Part shown: piece after piece, positions 9,346 through 19,421 of the stretch
Position numbering within the stretch: position 1 is the first letter of the stretch
Layout: every line of letters starts with the position of its first letter
Assembly (NCBI RefSeq): GCF_900148835.1
Contig: NZ_FRYK01000001.1
Location: forward strand, 620,001-684,000
Reading direction: 5' to 3'
Source of the DNA: Flavobacterium cucumis
GTDB lineage: Bacteria; Bacteroidota; Bacteroidia; Flavobacteriales; Flavobacteriaceae
DNA: 64,000 bases
Notes under the pieces: model-generated
The model's database searches: none
What the model saw: only the letters and a program-made list of their open reading frames with translations
What the model was told of the DNA's origin: nothing
Made by a program: the position numbers and the translations under genes

Positions 9346-10308
9346 TTGAAAGCTAGTATTCGAAAATTTTTAAGCCTTTCTATCCCTCTCATTATTGGGC
9401 TAGGTATTATTTATTATCAATACAATACACTTTCTGATGATGAATTAGAAAAAATAAAAATCAGCTTCATTAAAGCCGATTACTTTTATATCTATTTATC
9501 ACTATTTATTGCCCTTTTTGGTTTTTGGTCAAGAGCATACCGTTGGAAATTCGCGTTACAACATTTAGGATATCAAACCAAATTTCGAAACGACCTAATG
9601 ACCGTTTGCGTGTCTTATTTGGTTAATTTAACTATTCCAAGATCTGGTGAAATATCTAGGGCCGCATTATTAAAAAAGTACGAAAACGTACCTTTTGACA
9701 AAGGCTTTGGAACAATTGTCGCAGAACGAATAGTTGACATGATTATCGTTCTGCTCTTTATCGCCATTGGATTGATCTTACAATTTGATAAAATTTACCA
9801 ATTTTTAATTGATAAAGGGGTTCAATTTGAAGCCTTAATTGGGTCTGCAATTATAGGACTTATTCTCTTCATTATTCTTGTTTTGGTCTGGATTTACGCT
9901 GAATGGAATGTTATTTTAAAACTTAAACAAAAACTATCTGGCCTAATCGAAGGGATGCAAAGCATCTTAAAAATGAAGGATAAATGGAAGTATATTTTTC
10001 ATTCCTTCTTTATTTGGTTTTCCTACTTGATGATGTTTTACGTTACTATTTTCGCCCTGCCTGAAACCGCAACCATCAGTTTCGATATAGTCGTAATGGG
10101 CTTTATTTTCGGAACACTTGCTGTCGGTTTTACTAACGGAGGTTTAGGTGCTTTCCCATTAGCCATCGCCATGATTTACGCTCTTTATGGAATACCAAAC
10201 GATGTAGGAGTTGCCTTTGGCTGGCTAGTTTGGACATCACAAACCCTTTTAACCATTTTTTTAGGGCTAATATCTTATTTACTTTTACCTATTTTAAATA
10301 AAAAATAA
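9346..10308 (+). CDS. UPF0104/YbhN-like lysylphosphatidylglycerol synthase transmembrane protein
   Basis: A 320-residue polytopic inner-membrane protein with about eight hydrophobic segments. It has the features of the LPG synthase membrane domain/UPF0104 family: the WRWK-like segment (RAYRWKFALQ), the N-x-x-I-P-R-S-G-E stretch, and the later GGLGAFP motif. No cytoplasmic aminoacyl-transferase domain is present, so it is not a lysyl-PG synthase as such; related proteins act as lipid flippases. A TTG codon one base after the panD stop fits the frame, and translation is probably coupled to panD. Confidence 0.85.
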   Translation: MKASIRKFLSLSIPLIIGLGIIYYQYNTLSDDELEKIKISFIKADYFYIYLSLFIALFGFWSRAYRWKFALQHLGYQTKFRNDLMTVCVSYLVNLTIPRSGEISRAALLKKYENVPFDKGFGTIVAERIVDMIIVLLFIAIGLILQFDKIYQFLIDKGVQFEALIGSAIIGLILFIILVLVWIYAEWNVILKLKQKLSGLIEGMQSILKMKDKWKYIFHSFFIWFSYLMMFYVTIFALPETATISFDIVVMGFIFGTLAVGFTNGGLGAFPLAIAMIYALYGIPNDVGVAFGWLVWTSQTLLTIFLGLISYLLLPILNKK

Positions 10309-10346: not shown

Positions 10347-11546
10347 ATGAAAATGAAGCTTCTGATACTATTATTATTGCTTTCCAATTCTATATTTTCT
10401 CAAAAAATTAAAGAATCCATTCAAACAAAAAAACTAGGCACCCGCAATTTCACGATTGTAATACCTCCTTCATATGAAAACAATAAAGATAAAAAATACC
10501 CTTTATTGCTGCTCTTGGATGGAGAATATTTACTCCCACCATTTGAAGGAACGTTAAACTATGGTAATTATTGGGATGATCTACCAGAAATGATTATTGT
10601 AGCTATCGATCAAAACTATAACGAAGTACGATTTGATGACAGCCAATTTGATTTAAAAGGATTTCCGATAGAAAAAGGAGCTGACTTTTTCGAATTTATT
10701 GGTGTTGAACTAATTCCATTGATAGAACAAAAATACAGAACGCTTCCTTTCAGAATTATTGCAGGTCACGACACAACAGCTGGATTTTTAAATTTCTACC
10801 TATATAAAGACAATCCCGTTTTTAATGGTTACATATCGCTTGCGCCAGAAATGGCTCCCGCAATGGAAACGAGAGTTGCTGAACGGCTATCCAAAATCAA
10901 CAAACCCTTGTTTTATTATCAAGCTACCGCGGATGGTGATTTACCTGAAATCAATGAAAAAGCAACTACTCTAGACAAAAATATCAAAGCTATTCAGAAT
11001 CCAAATTTAAAATACCAAAACGATGCTTTTAAGAATACTTCACATTATTCAGTAGTAACTAAAGCAATCCCGAATGCATTGTATTTTATTTTTGAAGGTT
11101 ACCAACCTATTTCTATGTTAGAATTCCAAAATAAGATTGTTAATTTAGAATCTGGATACGCCAATTATCTAATCGAAAAATACAATTATTTAGAAAATAT
11201 GGGGCTTCAAGTAAAACCACGCCTTTCAGACTTTAAAGCTATTGAAGCTGCAATTTTAAAAAACAAAGCATTTTTGGAACTCCAGCCACTAGCGGATTAT
11301 GCAGATAAAAAATATCCAAAAACTACATTAGGAACTTATCATCAAGCTTTGTATTTTGAGAAAACTGGTAATTTTAAAAAAGCACTAAAAACATATCAAA
11401 AATCATTTGCTTTAGAAGAAGTTAGAGAATTAACAAAAGATTATTTAATGTCGCGAGCAGATGCGTTAAAGGGTAAAGAAGACGCACCCGAAGAAGATGC
11501 CCCAACAGAAATAATTGAAGAAACTGCAACAGATAAGAAAGAGTAA
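10347..11546 (+). CDS. Esterase-like alpha/beta-hydrolase fold protein with C-terminal TPR-like helices
   Basis: A 399-residue exported protein (signal peptide about 1-19, ending SIFSQ). It has an esterase-D/IroE-like alpha/beta-hydrolase fold to about residue 260, followed by a helical region with one or two TPR-like units near 330-370 and an acidic tail. The nucleophile elbow, normally GHSxGG, reads GHDTTAG, with Asp at 142. A possible catalytic His lies in the TSHYSVV segment. With Ser missing, normal esterase activity is doubtful. It is four bases upstream of radA and part of the panC-to-radA run. Its function is unknown. Confidence 0.7.
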   Translation: MKMKLLILLLLLSNSIFSQKIKESIQTKKLGTRNFTIVIPPSYENNKDKKYPLLLLLDGEYLLPPFEGTLNYGNYWDDLPEMIIVAIDQNYNEVRFDDSQFDLKGFPIEKGADFFEFIGVELIPLIEQKYRTLPFRIIAGHDTTAGFLNFYLYKDNPVFNGYISLAPEMAPAMETRVAERLSKINKPLFYYQATADGDLPEINEKATTLDKNIKAIQNPNLKYQNDAFKNTSHYSVVTKAIPNALYFIFEGYQPISMLEFQNKIVNLESGYANYLIEKYNYLENMGLQVKPRLSDFKAIEAAILKNKAFLELQPLADYADKKYPKTTLGTYHQALYFEKTGNFKKALKTYQKSFALEEVRELTKDYLMSRADALKGKEDAPEEDAPTEIIEETATDKKE

Positions 11547-11550
11547 AACT

Positions 11551-12912
11551 ATGAGTAAAGTAAAAACTGCTTTTTTTTGCCAAAATTGCGGCACCCAATA
11601 TTCAAAATGGCAAGGCCAATGTAATGCTTGCAAAGAATGGAATACCATCGTTGAAGAATTGGTTCAAAAAGAAGAAAAAGTGGCTTGGAAAACAACTGTT
11701 AGTACCTCGAAAGTAGCTACAAAACCTTTACTTGTAAAAGAAATTGATACCGCACAAGAAATCCGATTAAACACTACTGATAACGAGTTGAATCGGGTTT
11801 TGGGGGGCGGATTGGTCCCAGGTTCTTTGACTTTGCTGGGAGGTGAACCAGGAATTGGAAAAAGTACATTATTACTGCAAATTGCATTAAAACTTCCTTA
11901 TAAAACGTTTTATGTTTCAGGAGAAGAAAGCCAAAAGCAAATAAAAATGCGTGCTGAACGCATTACCTCAAATGGTGATAATTGTTATATCTTAACCGAA
12001 ACGAAAACCCAAAACATCTTCCGTCAAATATTGGAGATCGCGCCTGATATTGTTATTATCGATTCGATTCAAACCTTACATACCGATTATATTGAATCGT
12101 CTGCTGGAAGCATTTCTCAAATTAGAGAATGTACCGCTGAGTTAATAAAATTTGCTAAAGAGACCAATACACCCGTTCTTTTAATAGGTCATATTACAAA
12201 AGATGGAACTATAGCTGGACCAAAAATTTTGGAACACATGGTCGATACCGTTTTACAATTTGAAGGCGATCGAAATCACGTGTATCGTATCTTACGATCG
12301 TTAAAAAACCGTTTTGGCTCTACAGCTGAATTGGGAATTTACGAAATGCAAGGCTCTGGTTTACGAGAAGTCGACAACCCATCAGAAATTTTGATTTCTC
12401 ATAAAGACGAACAACTTTCAGGAACAGCAATTGCAACTACCTTAGAAGGGATGCGTCCGTTGATGATTGAAATTCAAGCTTTGGTTAGCACTGCTGTTTA
12501 CGGAACACCTCAACGAAGCACCACAGGTTACAATGCGAAACGCTTGAACATGATTTTAGCCGTGTTAGAAAAACGAGCGGGTTTTAGATTGGGCACAAAA
12601 GACGTATTCTTAAATGTAACAGGAGGAATTTCAGTTGAAGATACTGCAATTGATCTAGCAGTTGTTGCCGCTATTTTATCTTCTAACGAAGACATAGCCA
12701 TCGCAGAAGGCTTTTGCTTTGCTGGTGAAGTGGGGCTTTCTGGAGAAATCAGACCCGTTAATCGAATTGATCAGCGAATACAAGAGGCTGAGAAATTAGG
12801 TTTCACCTCAATTTTTGTTTCCAAGCACAATAAAATCGCTCTGAAAAAGACAGAAATTAAAATTATATTAGTGTCAAAAATTGAAGATATGGTAAGTGAA
12901 TTGTTTGGCTAA
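11551..12912 (+). CDS. radA: DNA repair protein RadA (Sms)
   Basis: A 453-residue RecA-related ATPase that helps process recombination intermediates by driving branch migration. It has an N-terminal four-Cys zinc finger (CQNCG and CNACK), Walker A GGEPGIGKST, the RadA signature KNRFG, and a C-terminal Lon-protease-like domain from about 280 on. I chose the ATG at 11551. A longer in-frame start at 11515 would overlap the preceding gene by 32 bases and add residues not seen in the family. No terminator follows; the DUF547 promoter begins about 50 bases later. Confidence 0.97.
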   Translation: MSKVKTAFFCQNCGTQYSKWQGQCNACKEWNTIVEELVQKEEKVAWKTTVSTSKVATKPLLVKEIDTAQEIRLNTTDNELNRVLGGGLVPGSLTLLGGEPGIGKSTLLLQIALKLPYKTFYVSGEESQKQIKMRAERITSNGDNCYILTETKTQNIFRQILEIAPDIVIIDSIQTLHTDYIESSAGSISQIRECTAELIKFAKETNTPVLLIGHITKDGTIAGPKILEHMVDTVLQFEGDRNHVYRILRSLKNRFGSTAELGIYEMQGSGLREVDNPSEILISHKDEQLSGTAIATTLEGMRPLMIEIQALVSTAVYGTPQRSTTGYNAKRLNMILAVLEKRAGFRLGTKDVFLNVTGGISVEDTAIDLAVVAAILSSNEDIAIAEGFCFAGEVGLSGEIRPVNRIDQRIQEAEKLGFTSIFVSKHNKIALKKTEIKIILVSKIEDMVSELFG

Positions 12913-12964
12913 AACGAAAATATATTAAAAATTCAATAAAAGTTTAATTTTTTTATTTTTTTTA

Positions 12965-12972
12965 TATCTTTG
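12965..12972 (+). promoter_or_regulatory. -7 element for the DUF547 gene
   Basis: TATCTTTG matches TAnnTTTG after a T-rich tract. It is 48 bases upstream of the ATG and marks a separate transcript from radA. Confidence 0.65.
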
Positions 12973-13020
12973 CAAACCTTAATTGACGGGATAATAACAT
13001 TTTAAATTATAAACATTTAT

Positions 13021-13716
13021 ATGAAAAAATTACTTTTACTTATCTTTTTTATCGGTTTCTTAGGTAATAGTCAAACCATTGACTATAAATTATATGACGA
13101 ATTTTTGAAGAAACATGTTTCCGAAGAAGGAATTGTTGATTATGACAAAGTTTTGAAAAATATGGGTCAAATAAATTTAATTGCTTCCAATTTTTCAAAA
13201 ATTTCCCCAAACAAGAGTTGGACAAAAAGTGAAATAAAAACATTTTGGATTAATGTTTACAATGTAAATGTTATTAAACTTTTTGCAGAAAATTACCCAC
13301 TGAAAAGTATCAACTACATCAGAGATCCTTTTCAAATGAAGTTTATTTCTTATGATGGTGAAAAAATATCATTAGACCACATTCAAAATGAGATTTTAAA
13401 ACCACTTGGTGACCCAAGAGTACTTTTTGTATTATACTCTACTGCCATTTCTTCTCCGAAGCTTAAAAATGCTGCTTATTCAGCTGATACTTTAGAAAAT
13501 GAATTAAATTTAGCTACTAATTCCTTTATCAATGATCCTTCAAAAAATAATATAACAGCTAAAAACTGTTCAATTTCTAAAATTTTCGAATGGAACATAA
13601 CCGATTTTATGGGAAGTAACACCATGGTTTCTTTCATAAACACTTATTCAAATACTAGAATTTCTGATGACACTAAAATTAGTTTCATGGAATATAACTG
13701 GAATTTGTTTAAATAA
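13021..13716 (+). CDS. DUF547 domain protein, exported
   Basis: A 231-residue protein with a signal peptide (about 1-18) and a DUF547 domain. Family patterns are the FWINVYNVNVIKL stretch near 78-90, the LDHIQNEIL segment, and the closing ISKIFEWNITDF. DUF547 proteins are thought to have a papain/transglutaminase-like fold. Members usually carry Cys residues in the HFALxCxxxxCPPL region; here it reads VLFVLYSTAISSPKL with no Cys. The gene has its own promoter and a strong terminator and is bracketed by the radA 3' end and a decayed second radA 3' end, so it looks inserted. Confidence 0.8.
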   Translation: MKKLLLLIFFIGFLGNSQTIDYKLYDEFLKKHVSEEGIVDYDKVLKNMGQINLIASNFSKISPNKSWTKSEIKTFWINVYNVNVIKLFAENYPLKSINYIRDPFQMKFISYDGEKISLDHIQNEILKPLGDPRVLFVLYSTAISSPKLKNAAYSADTLENELNLATNSFINDPSKNNITAKNCSISKIFEWNITDFMGSNTMVSFINTYSNTRISDDTKISFMEYNWNLFK

Positions 13717-13735
13717 TAAAAAATCAAAATATATA

Positions 13736-13772
13736 AAAGCTCCTAATTTATAAATAATTAGGAGCTTTTTTT
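13736..13772 (+). terminator. Strong terminator after the DUF547 gene
   Basis: AAAGCTCCTAATT pairs with AATTAGGAGCTTT around a short AT loop, followed by a seven-base T run. It can also work on the minus strand for the HTH gene. Confidence 0.9.
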
Positions 13773-13783
13773 ATATAACCTAT

Positions 13784-13894
13784 GGTTCTAAAATGCGATC
13801 AAACAAAATGCTCTAGTGAGATATTAGCATCATCAGGTCAAAATTGTTTTTAGTAGAGAATATAGAAGTTATGGTTAGTGAGTTGTTTGGGTAG
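13784..13894 (+). pseudogene. Decayed second copy of the radA 3' end
   Basis: The last 33 bases, read in frame, give IEVMVSELFG and stop, against IEDMVSELFG and stop at the end of intact radA. They are identical at 27 of 33 bases, and four of the six differences are silent. Upstream, skipping two extra T near 13847-13850, the reading K-I-V-L-V-E-N aligns with K-I-I-L-V-S-K. Weaker similarity reaches about 13784 (SK..NK..L), with stop codons inside. It lies after the DUF547 terminator and ends three bases before the stop codon of the opposing HTH gene. It is best explained as a displaced or duplicated radA tail left by an insertion or recombination event. Confidence 0.75.
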
Positions 13895-13897
13895 AAA

Positions 13898-14104
13898 TTA
13901 CTCTTTTACATATTCTAAAATATCTGCGGGTTGACAATCCAAAATTTCACAAATGGCTTCTAAAGTAGTCAATCGAATTGCCTTTGCTTTACCTGTTTTT
14001 ATAATGGATAGATTAGCGGTTGTAATGTCAAGTTTTTCAGCTAATTCTGCCGAACGCATTTTTCTTTTAGCTAACATGACATCTAAATTGATGATAATGG
14101 GCAT
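13898..14104 (-). CDS. Small Cro/CI-type HTH regulator (YozG-like)
   Basis: A 68-residue helix-turn-helix protein of the short YozG/HTH_26 type. The helix-turn-helix lies around ELAEKLDITTANLSIIKTGK, and the end ICEILDCQPADILEY is typical. It starts two bases after the DUF2975 gene ends. Small HTH genes of this class commonly pair with a DUF2975 membrane protein, so it probably regulates this two-gene unit or an unlinked target. Confidence 0.9.
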   Translation of the reverse strand: MPIIINLDVMLAKRKMRSAELAEKLDITTANLSIIKTGKAKAIRLTTLEAICEILDCQPADILEYVKE

Positions 14105-14106
14105 AA

Positions 14107-14610
14107 TTAAAATGTTAAATCGTTTTCTTCTTTTAAATGTTTGGCGATGACAAAAACTTCACTCAAAACTAAGAAAAACAAACCTAATGAAAATAACATT
14201 ACAAAAGGATTCAATCCTAAACTCAATGAAATTGTATTTTCCATTAACTCCGAAATAAAATTAGGAATTCCTCCTAACAGAGCAGATGAAGTGATAACAA
14301 ATCCTATTCTTTTTAAAAGGGTAACAACCTCTTCATCAAAAATAACTCGCAATTGAAACAAACGCAATAGTTTTCGAAAAAGAAACAAACCATAAACAAT
14401 TAGTGAAGCCGAAATAATTAAAAACACAAAAATCAACTTTGATTTAAAATCGACTACTTCTAAAGTTGTACCGTTAATTTCAATCGGAATATCAAGAGAT
14501 TCATTACTAAAAAGCATCATTCCAACAAAAAACAATAAAAATGGAATCGTAATCAACATGGTAATCCAAACAAAATCAACAATTCCTTTTAAAAAATTTA
14601 ATTTTCTCAT
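14107..14610 (-). CDS. DUF2975 membrane protein
   Basis: A 167-residue protein with four predicted membrane helices, of the DUF2975 family, whose function is unknown. I chose the ATG at 14610. A longer in-frame start at 14637 would overlap the -7 promoter element (14635-14642) and lie upstream of the expected transcript start, so it cannot normally be translated. It forms a tight pair with the downstream HTH gene. A membrane sensor or partner for the HTH protein is an inference from the pairing. Confidence 0.85.
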   Translation of the reverse strand: MRKLNFLKGIVDFVWITMLITIPFLLFFVGMMLFSNESLDIPIEINGTTLEVVDFKSKLIFVFLIISASLIVYGLFLFRKLLRLFQLRVIFDEEVVTLLKRIGFVITSSALLGGIPNFISELMENTISLSLGLNPFVMLFSLGLFFLVLSEVFVIAKHLKEENDLTF

Positions 14611-14634
14611 CTCTTTACTTTTTAAAGTTCGAGA

Positions 14635-14661
14635 CAAATATATAAAATTATTGTTTTACAA
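14635..14661 (-). promoter_or_regulatory. Promoter of DUF2975-HTH pair
   Basis: The minus strand reads TATATTTG (14642-14635), with TTG at 14661-14659, 16 bases upstream. It places the transcript start around 14628 and decides the start codon of the DUF2975 gene. Confidence 0.7.
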
Positions 14662-14706
14662 TAATAAAATATTAAATTTTGATAATTTTTATACTGTTTA
14701 GCAGAA

Positions 14707-14739
14707 AGACCTGACAGGTTTTTGAAACCTGTCAGGTCT
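14707..14739. repeat. Perfect 15-base inverted repeat, REP-like
   Basis: AGACCTGACAGGTTT and its exact reverse complement are separated by TTG. There is no T run long enough for a standard terminator. The palindrome resembles a GACCTGACAGGTTT palindrome I recall as dispersed in Bacteroidota genomes. It is seen once in this window. Confidence 0.85.
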
Positions 14740-14782
14740 AAAATTGTATGATTATTGTGAAAGAATATCCAAGTAAACGAAA

Positions 14783-15415
14783 TTACCTATTCTTTGAATT
14801 ATCAAATAAGGTATTCAAATTAATTTCTGTATTATAATAAAAATTATACATGATAACTAATTTAGTTGCACTATTCTTATAATCTTGTTGGTTAATATTT
14901 AATAAAAAAGTATTAGGAAAATTTTGGCTATAATACTCTTTATTCTTTTTAACATCACTTAAATATCTTTTTAAATTTTTAGTGGCATTTTTTTCAATAA
15001 TTTTAAAAAAAAGTGATTTTGAATTTAGAATATAAAGATTTGGATAATATTCATCAAAGTTTTCATCTTCGCCTTTGAATGGGTTTGAATAATTTTTATT
15101 AGCATCTTTAATTTTGATAAAAATGCTTGTGTTTTTTAATAAATTATTATTGATTTTATCTTCGTATGCAATTGTGTAAAAACCTTTTTTAACCTCATCT
15201 TTTACAAAATCTTGAACAAATTGCTGATAAGATTCATTATAAGTCAGATTTGGATAACATTTTTTTAGATAATTATTAAAATGAGTAACAGAGAGTTCAA
15301 TTGCTTTGTATTCTTTATCATTCAACTTCCCTTTAAACATGTCTGCTTCATTAATTGTATTCTCATTACAACTAAATAAAATAAACAAACTAAAAAAACA
15401 GAATAAACATTTCAT
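14783..15415 (-). CDS. Lipoprotein of unknown function
   Basis: A 210-residue protein with a lipoprotein signal peptide (hydrophobic stretch, then LFSC with lipid Cys near 16). The rest is rich in Lys, Asn and Tyr with no recognised domain. It follows mfd by 40 bases on the same strand and may be read through from it. Its base composition is more AT-rich than mfd's, which could mean recent arrival or weak constraint. I do not recognise the family. Confidence 0.7.
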   Translation of the reverse strand: MKCLFCFFSLFILFSCNENTINEADMFKGKLNDKEYKAIELSVTHFNNYLKKCYPNLTYNESYQQFVQDFVKDEVKKGFYTIAYEDKINNNLLKNTSIFIKIKDANKNYSNPFKGEDENFDEYYPNLYILNSKSLFFKIIEKNATKNLKRYLSDVKKNKEYYSQNFPNTFLLNINQQDYKNSATKLVIMYNFYYNTEINLNTLFDNSKNR

Positions 15416-15455
15416 AATAATAAAAAGATAAAATTTTAAAACAATTCAATTCAAC

Positions 15456-18400
15456 TTAAATCCCTTCCAACAACTCCAACGCCTTATTTACACTTTTGAC
15501 ATTATCAAAAGTCAGTAATAAACGTAAGCCGTTCTTGGTTTCTTTTTCTTTTATCTTACATACATTACCGTTGCGTTGCGCAAATTGTAGTACGTTCATA
15601 AAACGATTACTTTGGTAAAAATCACTTTGTTGGTCGCCAATGAAATAGCCTATCATTTTGCCTTGTTTCATCATCAAACGTTCAATTCCCATAGCCGTGG
15701 CTTTCCATTTGATGCGTACGCTATTTAGTAAAGCAATCGCTGGTTTTGGTAACGCGCCAAAGCGGTCAATTAGTTTTTGTTCAAATTGTTGTAAGGTGGC
15801 TTCGTCTTTAATTTGGCTCAACTCGTTGTATAAATTCAAACGCTCGGTAATGCTGTTGATGTATTCATCTGGGAACAGCAATTCGAAATCGGTATCAATT
15901 TGAATGTCTTTAACAAATTCTTTGGTTTCGATGTCATTTTCTTCTTGGTATAACTCTTTGAATTCGTTTTCTTTCAATTCGTCTATGGCTTCATTCATGA
16001 TTTTTTGGTAGGTATCAAAGCCAATTTCGTTGATAAAACCACTTTGTTCACCACCTAATAAATCTCCCGCACCACGAATTTCCAAATCCTTCATCGCAAT
16101 ATTAAAACCGCTTCCTAGTTCGCTAAATTGTTCCAAAGCCGTAATACGTTTTTGCGCTTCACCCGTCATCATCGAATACGGTGGCGTAATGAAATAACAA
16201 AACGCTTTTTTATTACTTCTTCCCACGCGACCACGCATTTGGTGCAAATCAGACAATCCGAAATTATTGGCATTATTGATGAAAATCGTATTCGCATTCG
16301 GTACATCTAAACCACTTTCGATAATCGTAGTAGCGACCAAAACGTCAAATTCACCTTCCATGAAAGCCAACATCAATTCTTCCAATTTTTTCCCATCCAT
16401 TTGACCGTGACCGATGCCGACTTTTGCACCTGGCACCAAGCGTTGAATCATACCGGCAACTTCTTTAATGTTTTCAATTCGATTATTGATGAAATAGACT
16501 TGTCCACCACGCTGAATTTCATACGAAACCGCATCGCGAATGACTTCTTCATTAAAACGAATAACTTGTGTTTCAATCGGATAACGATTTGGCGGAGGCG
16601 TTGTAATTACCGATAAATCACGAGCCGCCATCAACGAAAACTGCAACGTTCTCGGAATCGGAGTTGCGGTTAAGGTTAACGTATCGACATTCGTAGCGAT
16701 GGTTTTTAATTTATCTTTTACGTTCACGCCGAATTTTTGTTCTTCGTCGATAATCAACAAACCTAAATCTTTAAACACGACATTTTTATTGACCAATTGG
16801 TGTGTTCCAATCAAAATATCGACTTTTCCTTCTTGTAGTTTTTGAAGTGTCTCCGATTTTTGTTTGGCTGTTCTAAATCGGTTTAAATAGCTAACGGTAA
16901 CGGGCATATCTTTCAAACGCTCAGAAAACGTGCGATAATGTTGATACGCTAAAATGGTCGTTGGCACTAAAACAGCAACTTGTTTCCCATTATCTACCGC
17001 TTTAAAAGCCGCACGAATCGCGACTTCTGTTTTCCCGAAACCTACGTCACCACAAACTAATCGGTCCATCGGACGTTCGTTTTCCATATCCGCTTTTACA
17101 TCTGCTGTTGCGGTAATTTGGTCGGGCGTATCCTCGTAAATGAACGAACTTTCTAATTCTTTTTGCAAATAACTATCGGGTGCAAACTGAAAACCTTTGT
17201 CTAATCTTCGCTTCGCATACAACTGAATTAAGTTGAACGCAATGTGTTTTACACGTGCTTTTGTTTTTTGTTTTAGGGTTTTCCAAGCGTTACTTCCTAA
17301 TTTGTAAATCTTTGGAGGTGCACCATCTTTACCATTGTATTTTGAGATTTTATGTAGCGAATGAATGCTCACATACACAATATCGTTATCGGCATAAACC
17401 AATTTTATGGCTTCTTGCGTTTTACCTTCGACCTGAATTTTCTGCAAGCCACCAAATTTTCCAATTCCATGATCGATGTGCGTTACATAATCACCTACCG
17501 ACAACGAAGTTAACTCCTTTAATGTAATGGTTTGCTTTTTTGAATAACCGTTTTTAATGGAAAACTTATGGTAACGCTCAAAAATTTGATGATCGGTATA
17601 ACAAGCAATTTGATTTTCTTCATCGATGAAACCTTCAAACAAAGGTAACACCATAGTTTTGTATTGCTTGCGAATACTTTCTGAATTGGCTTCATCAATA
17701 TCTTCAAAAATATCATGAAAACGACTCGCCTGATTTTCATTGGAACAACACAAATAATTTTTGTAACCGTTGAAATGATTTTCACTTAAATTATTCAATA
17801 ACAAATCGAATTGTTTGTTGAACGAAGGTTGCGGTTGAAAGTGAAATTCCACTTTTTTATCAATTTTAAAAACCGCTTGATTGTGAAATTCAATTACCGA
17901 AAAATCAAGAGCTCTTTTCAAAAACTGTTTTTGATCTAAGAATAACTCTTCGGGTTTTGCGTGTTGGATATCTTTGGATAATTTTTCAAAAGCTTCATTG
18001 GCTTTGTCGAATAATTTATCCAATTGTTGGCCTAATAATTCAGTATTTTGAATGACTAAAACCGTTTTTTCGTTGATATAATCTAAGAAACTTTCGCGGT
18101 TTTCTTGCAATAATTTGTTTTCGACATTAGGAATGATGGAAATCTTTTTCAGCTTTTCAACTGACAATTGGGTTTCCACATCAAAACTTCTAATGCTATC
18201 GACTTCATTTCCGAAAAATTCAATTCGGTACGGATTATCATTGGAAAATGAAAACACGTCGATGATTCCTCCACGAACGGAAAATTCGCCTGGTTCGGTA
18301 ACAAAATCAACACGTTTGAAATTGTATTCGAATAAGGTTTCGTTGATAAAATCGATAGACAAATTATCGCCAACTGAAAGTTTTAAAGTGTTTTTTTCTA

Positions 18401-18809
18401 ATTCTTTTCGAGTAACAACTTTCTCGAAAATGGCTTCAGCATAAGAAACAATAATCGCTGGTTTTTTGCGGGAATTGATTCGGTTTAAGACCTCAGCACG
18501 TAATAAAACATTAGCGTTATCGGTCTCTTCAATTTGATAAGGTCTTCGGTACGAACTTGGATAGAAGAGGACGTCTTCAGTATTGATTAATTGCTCCAAA
18601 TCGTTCAAGTAATAGGCCGCTTCTTCCTTATTACTGAATAAAATCAGGAACGGAAGTTCGGATCTTTTAAACAGTGAATTTGTCACAAAAGAAAATGAAG
18701 ATCCTACCAAACCCGTCATTTGAGATTTTTGGCGCGCTGCGAATGTACTTTGTAAAACGGCAATTTTGGACGACTTATCGTAAAGGGATATAATGTCTGA
18801 CTTGCTCAA
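15456..18809 (-). CDS. mfd: Transcription-repair coupling factor
   Basis: The 1117-residue Mfd translocase, which removes RNA polymerase stalled at lesions and recruits UvrA. It has a UvrB-like N-terminal module, a CarD/RNAP-interaction domain at about 434-490 (SVGDYVTHIDHGIGKF), helicase Walker A GDVGFGKTE near 586, a DEEQ box near 688, helicase C-terminal motifs including the QMRGRVGR stretch, and the TRCF C-terminal domain. Length is normal. The start is three bases after the preceding lipoprotein gene, so expression is likely coupled. Confidence 0.98.
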   Translation of the reverse strand: MSKSDIISLYDKSSKIAVLQSTFAARQKSQMTGLVGSSFSFVTNSLFKRSELPFLILFSNKEEAAYYLNDLEQLINTEDVLFYPSSYRRPYQIEETDNANVLLRAEVLNRINSRKKPAIIVSYAEAIFEKVVTRKELEKNTLKLSVGDNLSIDFINETLFEYNFKRVDFVTEPGEFSVRGGIIDVFSFSNDNPYRIEFFGNEVDSIRSFDVETQLSVEKLKKISIIPNVENKLLQENRESFLDYINEKTVLVIQNTELLGQQLDKLFDKANEAFEKLSKDIQHAKPEELFLDQKQFLKRALDFSVIEFHNQAVFKIDKKVEFHFQPQPSFNKQFDLLLNNLSENHFNGYKNYLCCSNENQASRFHDIFEDIDEANSESIRKQYKTMVLPLFEGFIDEENQIACYTDHQIFERYHKFSIKNGYSKKQTITLKELTSLSVGDYVTHIDHGIGKFGGLQKIQVEGKTQEAIKLVYADNDIVYVSIHSLHKISKYNGKDGAPPKIYKLGSNAWKTLKQKTKARVKHIAFNLIQLYAKRRLDKGFQFAPDSYLQKELESSFIYEDTPDQITATADVKADMENERPMDRLVCGDVGFGKTEVAIRAAFKAVDNGKQVAVLVPTTILAYQHYRTFSERLKDMPVTVSYLNRFRTAKQKSETLQKLQEGKVDILIGTHQLVNKNVVFKDLGLLIIDEEQKFGVNVKDKLKTIATNVDTLTLTATPIPRTLQFSLMAARDLSVITTPPPNRYPIETQVIRFNEEVIRDAVSYEIQRGGQVYFINNRIENIKEVAGMIQRLVPGAKVGIGHGQMDGKKLEELMLAFMEGEFDVLVATTIIESGLDVPNANTIFINNANNFGLSDLHQMRGRVGRSNKKAFCYFITPPYSMMTGEAQKRITALEQFSELGSGFNIAMKDLEIRGAGDLLGGEQSGFINEIGFDTYQKIMNEAIDELKENEFKELYQEENDIETKEFVKDIQIDTDFELLFPDEYINSITERLNLYNELSQIKDEATLQQFEQKLIDRFGALPKPAIALLNSVRIKWKATAMGIERLMMKQGKMIGYFIGDQQSDFYQSNRFMNVLQFAQRNGNVCKIKEKETKNGLRLLLTFDNVKSVNKALELLEGI

Positions 18810-18812
18810 AAC

Positions 18813-19421
18813 TTATTCTATTTTTTTATCTGAAATTTCCATCTTTTTTCGCATCTCATCTGGGTTGGCGTTTCTTGTGGTATCCAAAGCTTGCAGCATA
18901 AGATCTTCTCCAATTTCTTTTGGAATCGCCTTTTTGATGATGATTTCATCCCATTGTTTATATAATCCTTTGATTTCTTCGTTAATTTCAGGAATTAATT
19001 TAGCAATTCGCTGTTCAGGAATTATACGTAAATTCATGAAAGTCTCTAATGATTTTAATTTGGTATTTAAAGTCGTTATTCTACTTAAAATTTGAGGCTT
19101 ATTGTATTCAAAAGGAATCGATAATGCTAACGTATCTGCTTTTTTTGATAAATTCTTTGTCTTCATTTGAAAAGCTGATAATGTAGATTGGGGTTTTTGA
19201 AGCATTTCGATTTCAAACTGACGCCACTCATTCCATCGATCTAAAGTAGTTTTAACCTCGACACGTGGTGTGGGAAAATTAAATTGCCACATTTTAGAAA
19301 TATTTTTAAAAACAGCTTCATTTTTTTGAGCTACTTTTTGGGCCTCTAATTGCTGATTTTCATTCTCACACGAAATCAAGGTCAAAACTAAAAGCGATAA
19401 ACTATATAAGAAAACTTTCAT
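18813..19421 (-). CDS. Coiled-coil lipoprotein upstream of mfd
   Basis: A 202-residue protein with signal peptide and lipobox LISC (lipid Cys near 18). It is rich in helix-forming and charged residues, suggesting an elongated helical fold. It has no recognised domain. It is the first gene of a unit with mfd, with its own -7 promoter element 18 bases upstream. A role beside Mfd cannot be inferred from sequence. Confidence 0.75.
   Translation of the reverse strand: MKVFLYSLSLLVLTLISCENENQQLEAQKVAQKNEAVFKNISKMWQFNFPTPRVEVKTTLDRWNEWRQFEIEMLQKPQSTLSAFQMKTKNLSKKADTLALSIPFEYNKPQILSRITTLNTKLKSLETFMNLRIIPEQRIAKLIPEINEEIKGLYKQWDEIIIKKAIPKEIGEDLMLQALDTTRNANPDEMRKKMEISDKKIE

Follow-up and report, generated by a model that had tools for sequence, protein, structure and literature searches.

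Gene order at the radA locus

The window, meaning the whole analysed stretch of 64,000 nucleotides, belongs to a 2.85 Mb Flavobacterium genome. The part of it that surrounds radA contains the following features, among which mfd is a presumed identity.

10347 to 11546, plus strand: esterase-like gene (PF00756), deviating from the host group
11551 to 12912, plus strand: radA (sms), intact and apparently mosaic (TIGR00416, 583 bits)
12684 to 12912, plus strand: 3′ part of radA, apparently of foreign type (max-chi2 change point and tail divergence)
13021 to 13716, plus strand: DUF547 gene of 231 amino acids, the proposed cargo of the insertion (PF04784, E 1.9e-19)
13735 to 13769, either strand: terminator-like hairpin of 14 pairs, bidirectional
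13770 to 13837, no strand assigned: DNA between the hairpin and the scar, without radA similarity
13838 to 13894, plus strand: scar, the last 57 nt of what is probably the resident radA, decaying (alignment to the radA ends of relatives)
13898 to 14104, minus strand: HTH (HTH_26) regulator, resident right neighbour of radA (PF13443)
14107 to 14637, minus strand: DUF2975 membrane protein, partner of the HTH gene (PF11188)
between the DUF2975 gene and mfd, minus strand: 210-amino-acid protein, without a match in Pfam
15456 to 18809, minus strand: mfd, the right flank, of host-group type (nucleotide identity and tree)

The initial annotation had described a complete transcription unit between the two radA ends, made up of a promoter, the DUF547 gene and a terminator. 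The family assignment of the gene and the hairpin at 13735–13769 bear this out, but a promoter was not demonstrated, with eight sigma-70-like sites present and 7.7 expected. Terminator-like sites in 12850–14000 number four, against 0.4 expected. On the right-hand side, the HTH protein shares 96–97% of its amino acids with its counterparts in the three relatives where the HTH gene adjoins the radA stop, and the DUF2975 gene has a nucleotide identity of 0.94–0.95 to those of UBA12131 (L034) and F. fragile (L036).

Positions 14707–14739, in the gap after the DUF2975 gene, form a perfect palindrome with 15-nt arms (AGACCTGACAGGTTT / AAACCTGTCAGGTCT). Identical arms are present in the corresponding interval of UBA12131 and a variant half in that of L002, and judging from the sequence the element looks like a dispersed palindromic repeat. 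Upstream of radA, one of the compared loci (L061) has two tandem esterase homologs instead of one.

A second radA 3′ end downstream of the DUF547 gene

Downstream of the DUF547 gene lies a fragment of a radA 3′ end. The segment 13770–13900 aligns locally to the window's own radA with a score of 41, where no Markov shuffle of 1000 exceeds 36 and no other piece of the window, of 1554 tried, exceeds 31, and the radA C-terminal similarity noticed in the initial annotation is thereby placed above chance by a formal alignment. Against the radA tail of UBA12131 the remnant scores 75. In the remnant scan of 126 loci, this match is followed by a next forward match of 41, and the best reverse-strand control reaches 45, an AT-rich chance match. 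When 61 Flavobacterium genomes were searched with 13765–13900, the best non-self matches were radA ends, those of G023 (E 2.1e-12), G012 (2.7e-8) and G007 (3.0e-6), with the next match at 0.0017.

Together with the bases 3′ of its stop, the remnant aligns with the radA end and spacer of UBA12131 over 78 columns with two one-base gaps. It differs from the radA ends of 13 relatives at 7–10 of 56 sites and by one extra T, which takes the place of the two-base insertion read earlier. The six differences in the last 33 nt consist of four silent codon changes, one stop-for-stop change and one amino acid change, in agreement with the four silent differences already counted.

The remnant is shorter than the 111 bases (13784–13894) initially ascribed to radA, and only 13838–13894 is radA-like. 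Compared with the preceding radA sequence of 12 relatives, 13770–13837 shows no similarity (local P 0.43–0.97, global P 0.19–0.56), and an extension of the remnant to 13784 is ruled out, this segment being no better than shuffles. Because 13770–13837 is without radA similarity, the joint at 13837/13838 is sharp and looks non-homologous; the segment itself is probably the distal end of the incoming piece.

The origin of the remnant as a genome repeat was ruled out by a search of the own genome with 13717–13900 at E ≤ 1, which returned the locus itself, its own hairpin, a hairpin-like place (E 1.3e-4) and seven short pieces (E ≥ 0.245). The matches that touch 13770–13837 are the hairpin-like place, which reaches 17 nt into it, and short pieces at E 0.85.

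The uninterrupted locus and the probable resident radA end

In UBA12131, F. fragile and G114, the HTH/DUF2975 pair follows directly after radA and there is no DUF547 gene at that place, which is the arrangement that the initial annotation had suggested looking for. The HTH stop and the radA stop are separated by 3 nt in G114 and by 2 nt in the other two genomes, and in the window the HTH stop codon lies 3 nt from the stop codon of the scar.

The window radA departs from the majority of its relatives at ten positions of the compared end, and at these discriminating sites the remnant has the base of the relatives seven times, that of the window radA once and neither of them twice. Four of the ten are fixed among the relatives; the remnant sides with the relatives at three and with the window radA at one. 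The intact tail and the remnant differ from each other at 14 of 56 sites. Across its final 259 nt, the window radA is on average 0.181 away from the group, whose members differ among themselves by 0.073–0.101. Since the distances to the 13 relatives over the 56 sites overlap (7–10 for the remnant, 7–13 for the intact tail, which is closer than the remnant to L035, L158, L159 and L160 and tied with it for L033), what chiefly decides the assignment of the tails is where they lie, together with the discriminating sites and the comparison over the longer radA tail. The scar, which offers 56 comparable sites, is probably the resident radA end and the intact 3′ part the outlier, the reverse of the earlier proposal that the remnant came from another lineage.

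Reach of the presumed foreign DNA

The host group of the window is that of F. aquaticum, F. celericrescens and F. fragile, and identities were calculated against six named group members. The outer flanks are in line with the group, with mean nucleotide identities between the window and the group of 0.781 for the upstream membrane gene (0.807 within the group) and 0.917 for mfd (0.924 within the group). The esterase gene is an outlier (0.715 vs 0.850), and in radA the values are 0.875 and 0.940 for positions 1–550, 0.867 and 0.895 for 551–1100, and 0.820 and 0.926 for 1101–1359. In trees rooted at the midpoint and built from 23 sequences (14 for mfd), the upstream genes (support 0.96, next to F. 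fragile), the membrane gene (0.82) and mfd (0.96, next to F. celericrescens) place the window inside the group, and the esterase (group node 0.99) and the radA tail (0.90) place it outside. The tree of radA 1–1100 places the window outermost with weak support (0.36). The esterase gene pairs in its tree with the distant genome G202 (0.97). The deviation of the esterase from the group suggests a further or a larger import, and the gene (10347–11546) is probably part of the foreign tract.

Max-chi2 tests on private sites, with 1000 shuffles each, locate a change point at 10266 in the upstream stretch and another at 12684 in the test on 12050–12912, neither of which was equalled in any of the 1000 shuffles; for the latter test, the lowest P among 12 relatives is 0.071. 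Over the whole of radA, the change point is found at 12771 (P 0.004). Some relatives also have change points, L162 (P 0.004) and L159 (0.019) in radA and L154 (0.003) and L159 (0.017) upstream, so mosaicism alone is not special and recombination is common in the group.

The change point at 12684 and the outlying radA tail place one junction in homologous sequence, and the foreign signal starts about 170 nt upstream of the overlap between the two radA ends. Relative to the divergence within the group, that between the window and the group is high at 11634–12113, near 1 at 12354–12533, and from about 12654 onwards it is high once more. This profile fits a single long import interrupted by a resident patch as well as it fits two separate imports. 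Discontinuous imports are described for Bacillus transformation (PMC13344027).

Origin of the DUF547 gene

A search with the DUF547 protein over 398 Flavobacterium genomes gave matches in 44 of them, the best relative having 65% amino acid identity. In the wider family, 271 of 397 genomes match DUF547 at E ≤ 1e-30, with 58–59% for the best of the others. The protein has no match in 11 genomes of the host group (G012, G023, G066, G114, G163, G187, G198, G239, G253, G260 and G310), of which G023 and G253 are draft assemblies made up of hundreds of pieces. These 11 were taken as part of the 398-genome draw on the ground that the searches for the DUF547 protein and for donor DNA share its sample size and handles; for UBA12131 and F. 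lacisediminis, the reading was confined to the radA locus. At E ≤ 1e-4, no DUF547 homolog is present in the other 109 radA loci, covered for about 0.5 to 6 kb downstream.

Six relatives of the DUF547 protein come closest (60–65% amino acid identity, in six genomes), and their genes lie at another chromosomal place. There they are followed by what we assume to be DHFR-like and UbiE-like genes in all six genomes and presumably by an aldehyde-dehydrogenase-like gene in five, and in all five whose other side was visible an 813–816-amino-acid protein precedes them. The radA place was listed for 26 of the 43 other DUF547-bearing genomes; judged by eye, the two genes are on the same contig but more than 700 kb apart in five, and on different contigs in 21.

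The search for donor DNA with a 3.55-kb stretch gave no listed non-self match beyond about window position 12955, with 319 of the 398 genomes represented by one candidate place each. A donor with adjacent radA and DUF547 genes was thus not found, and the donor presumably belongs to an unsampled Flavobacterium lineage. The G+C content of the DUF547 gene is 0.27 and that of the window 0.33; with 0.29, the resident HTH/DUF2975 pair lies below the window value as well, and base composition is thus hardly informative about the origin of the gene. For the protein, there is no sequence match in the PDB at E 0.1 and no NCBIfam model, and none of the papers in the collection searched deals with both DUF547 and Flavobacterium.

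Proposed event and alternative explanations

The reading that we favour, and hold to be fairly probable, is that a foreign radA 3′ part together with the DUF547 gene was recombined into the chromosome by homology inside radA on one side and by an illegitimate joint 57 nt before the resident end on the other. In the ancestor, the esterase and radA genes would have stood immediately before the convergent HTH/DUF2975 pair, an order seen in UBA12131, F. fragile and G114. DNA from an unsampled Flavobacterium lineage would then have brought a related radA 3′ part and, behind it, the DUF547 gene. A homologous crossover may have taken place inside the resident radA, near the change point at 12684, and the esterase gene and the 5′ part of radA possibly arrived in the same import or in an earlier one. 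The other end of the incoming DNA, without homology, would have been joined 57 nt before the resident radA stop, turning the leftover tail into a non-coding scar that has been decaying since. Because the incoming piece carried its own end, radA would have stayed whole. We infer homology-facilitated illegitimate recombination (HFIR), presumably in a single event, as the simplest route. The report, in one study, that F. johnsoniae is not naturally competent (PMC7965970) was counted against this route. The initial annotation had offered recombination with incoming DNA carrying a different radA tail as one of two explanations; this explanation is supported, except that the intact tail and not the remnant is probably the foreign one.

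The main rival is a single crossover followed by a deletion, since in a test of conjugation in E. coli partial duplications accounted for 56 of 60 clones of similar appearance, which were single crossovers, compared with four HFIR events (PMC3240628). A circular or ligated molecule with a truncated radA 3′ fragment and the DUF547 gene would have produced a hybrid radA, the DUF547 gene and a second, 5′-truncated radA, of which all but the last 57 nt would later have been deleted. The tail types fit this course, with a hybrid first copy and the resident end in the second. It needs a second step, however, in the form of a deletion that ends 57 nt before the gene end, and the longer second copy of radA has left no trace in 13770–13837, for which reasons we regard it as unlikely.

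The polarity of the event could also be the opposite, with the order esterase, radA and DUF547 being ancestral and a radA tail with the HTH/DUF2975 pair from a group member being added downstream. All that the scar itself shows is that the HTH pair goes with the tail preserved in it. The pair is present in 4 of 13 group genomes, the window included, which are not grouped together in the mfd tree, and this scattered distribution implies that the pair also moves or is lost. What makes the opposite polarity improbable in our judgement is that the outliers are the esterase gene and the radA tail, whereas the upstream genes, the HTH/DUF2975 pair and mfd are of group type, and that the DUF547 gene is without a match in the 11 sampled group genomes.

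The second explanation of the initial annotation, that an element reconstructs the end of the gene, is not supported. In its specific form, a site-specific element would have targeted the radA 3′ end, supplied a tail in replacement and lost its integrase later on. At the attL and attR sites of elements inserted at a gene 3′ end, the architecture is alike, with an intact gene end, cargo and a remnant end in this order, which is also the order at the radA locus. Such an element is nevertheless highly unlikely, as the four genes between radA and mfd (DUF547, HTH, DUF2975 and the 210-amino-acid protein) have no recombinase or integrase among them in Pfam, the two ends are not near-identical (14 of 56 sites differ), the foreign signal extends well upstream of the overlap, by about 170 nt, and the arrangement recurs in none of the other loci scanned (1 of 126 loci). 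A simple insertion with target duplication, in which two identical radA ends drifted apart, would be expected to yield a duplicated gene end flanking a cargo gene, but there is very little to recommend it when the intact tail, presumably under selection, is the divergent one (0.181 against 0.073–0.101 over 259 nt) and the remnant keeps most of the group alleles, the latter not beyond doubt in so short a sequence.

Variability of the radA–mfd interval

Among 13 genomes, the interval between radA and mfd, 12913–15455 in the window, measures 797 to 2543 nt and varies in gene content. The HTH/DUF2975 pair is found in the four genomes mentioned above, a 196-amino-acid protein in four and a 108–110-amino-acid protein in three, and several further genes occur once or twice. 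In F. celericrescens, a 384-amino-acid frame is also located at the interval, and stands outside these counts owing to a boundary cut a few bases earlier. The variation invites the idea that the interval is, in this Flavobacterium group, an integrase-free exchange site, into which small cargo genes are repeatedly brought by homology to the conserved radA 3′ end; were this true, the scar would be an unusual record of a single exchange of this kind. We consider the idea improbable and do not claim it, because genomes that share cargo are not consistently closer to each other in the adjoining flanks, as an exchange through flank homology would have it, and because there is only one scar. The one clear flank excess concerns the radA 5′ part of the sister genomes F. 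sasangense and G066, and does not adjoin the interval. As to tail duplications elsewhere, for which a search had been suggested, no second case of a radA-tail scar came up in the 126 loci scanned, which reach up to 3 kb downstream (1.5 kb in many) and stand for a smaller number of genomes, as several of them are the same genome twice.

On its other side, mfd has variable surroundings too. The gene that follows it in the window (18813–19421) adjoins mfd in some relatives, is 1.8–2.4 kb away in L158, L159 and L160, and was not found in the stretch covered in other relatives.

Comparison with known systems

The scar is a real trace of horizontal replacement and adds one more case to a known kind of event. 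It offers a well-preserved natural example of a single cargo gene entering a chromosome without a visible mobile element, in which the resident gene end that was left behind gives evidence of the direction of the event. Such events could possibly be counted in general by looking for accessory genes flanked by gene ends that occur twice and stem from two different lineages; the radA locus itself is an ordinary trace of bacterial gene exchange and of modest significance. A literature search for radA as an integration site found no relevant report, and neither did a broader one for gene displacement.

Restriction-modification genes of Helicobacter pylori are known to insert with long target duplications, the two copies of which derive from the same target. 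As at the radA locus, cargo lies there between two copies of part of a host gene, but the two radA ends appear to come from two lineages.

In alignments of E. coli genomes, unshared segments occupy the same chromosomal place in related genomes, as they do at the radA locus, and illegitimate recombination, perhaps with the help of homology, has been held responsible for most of them (PMC2884548). That study stressed short segments of 20–500 bp, and in the portion of it drawn on here no gene end left behind is mentioned as a marker. HFIR is known from competent bacteria, with reports for Streptococcus pneumoniae, A. baylyi and P. stutzeri, and is rare in E. coli (PMC3240628); in it, one side recombines by homology in a shared gene, the other side joins without homology and cargo is gained, as proposed for radA. 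The radA case differs in that it would be a fossil event, with no donor found against which the joint could be compared, and in that the resident gene end was retained. A likeness in this last respect is offered by the displacement of type VI secretion effectors in Vibrio and of rhs C-termini, for which HFIR has been proposed and in which a homologous anchor imports genes and the old 3′ part is pushed downstream as a leftover (PMC5361080). In those systems effector ends and immunity genes accumulate in arrays, whereas at radA the end of a housekeeping gene was displaced in what would have been one event, leaving a decaying scar.
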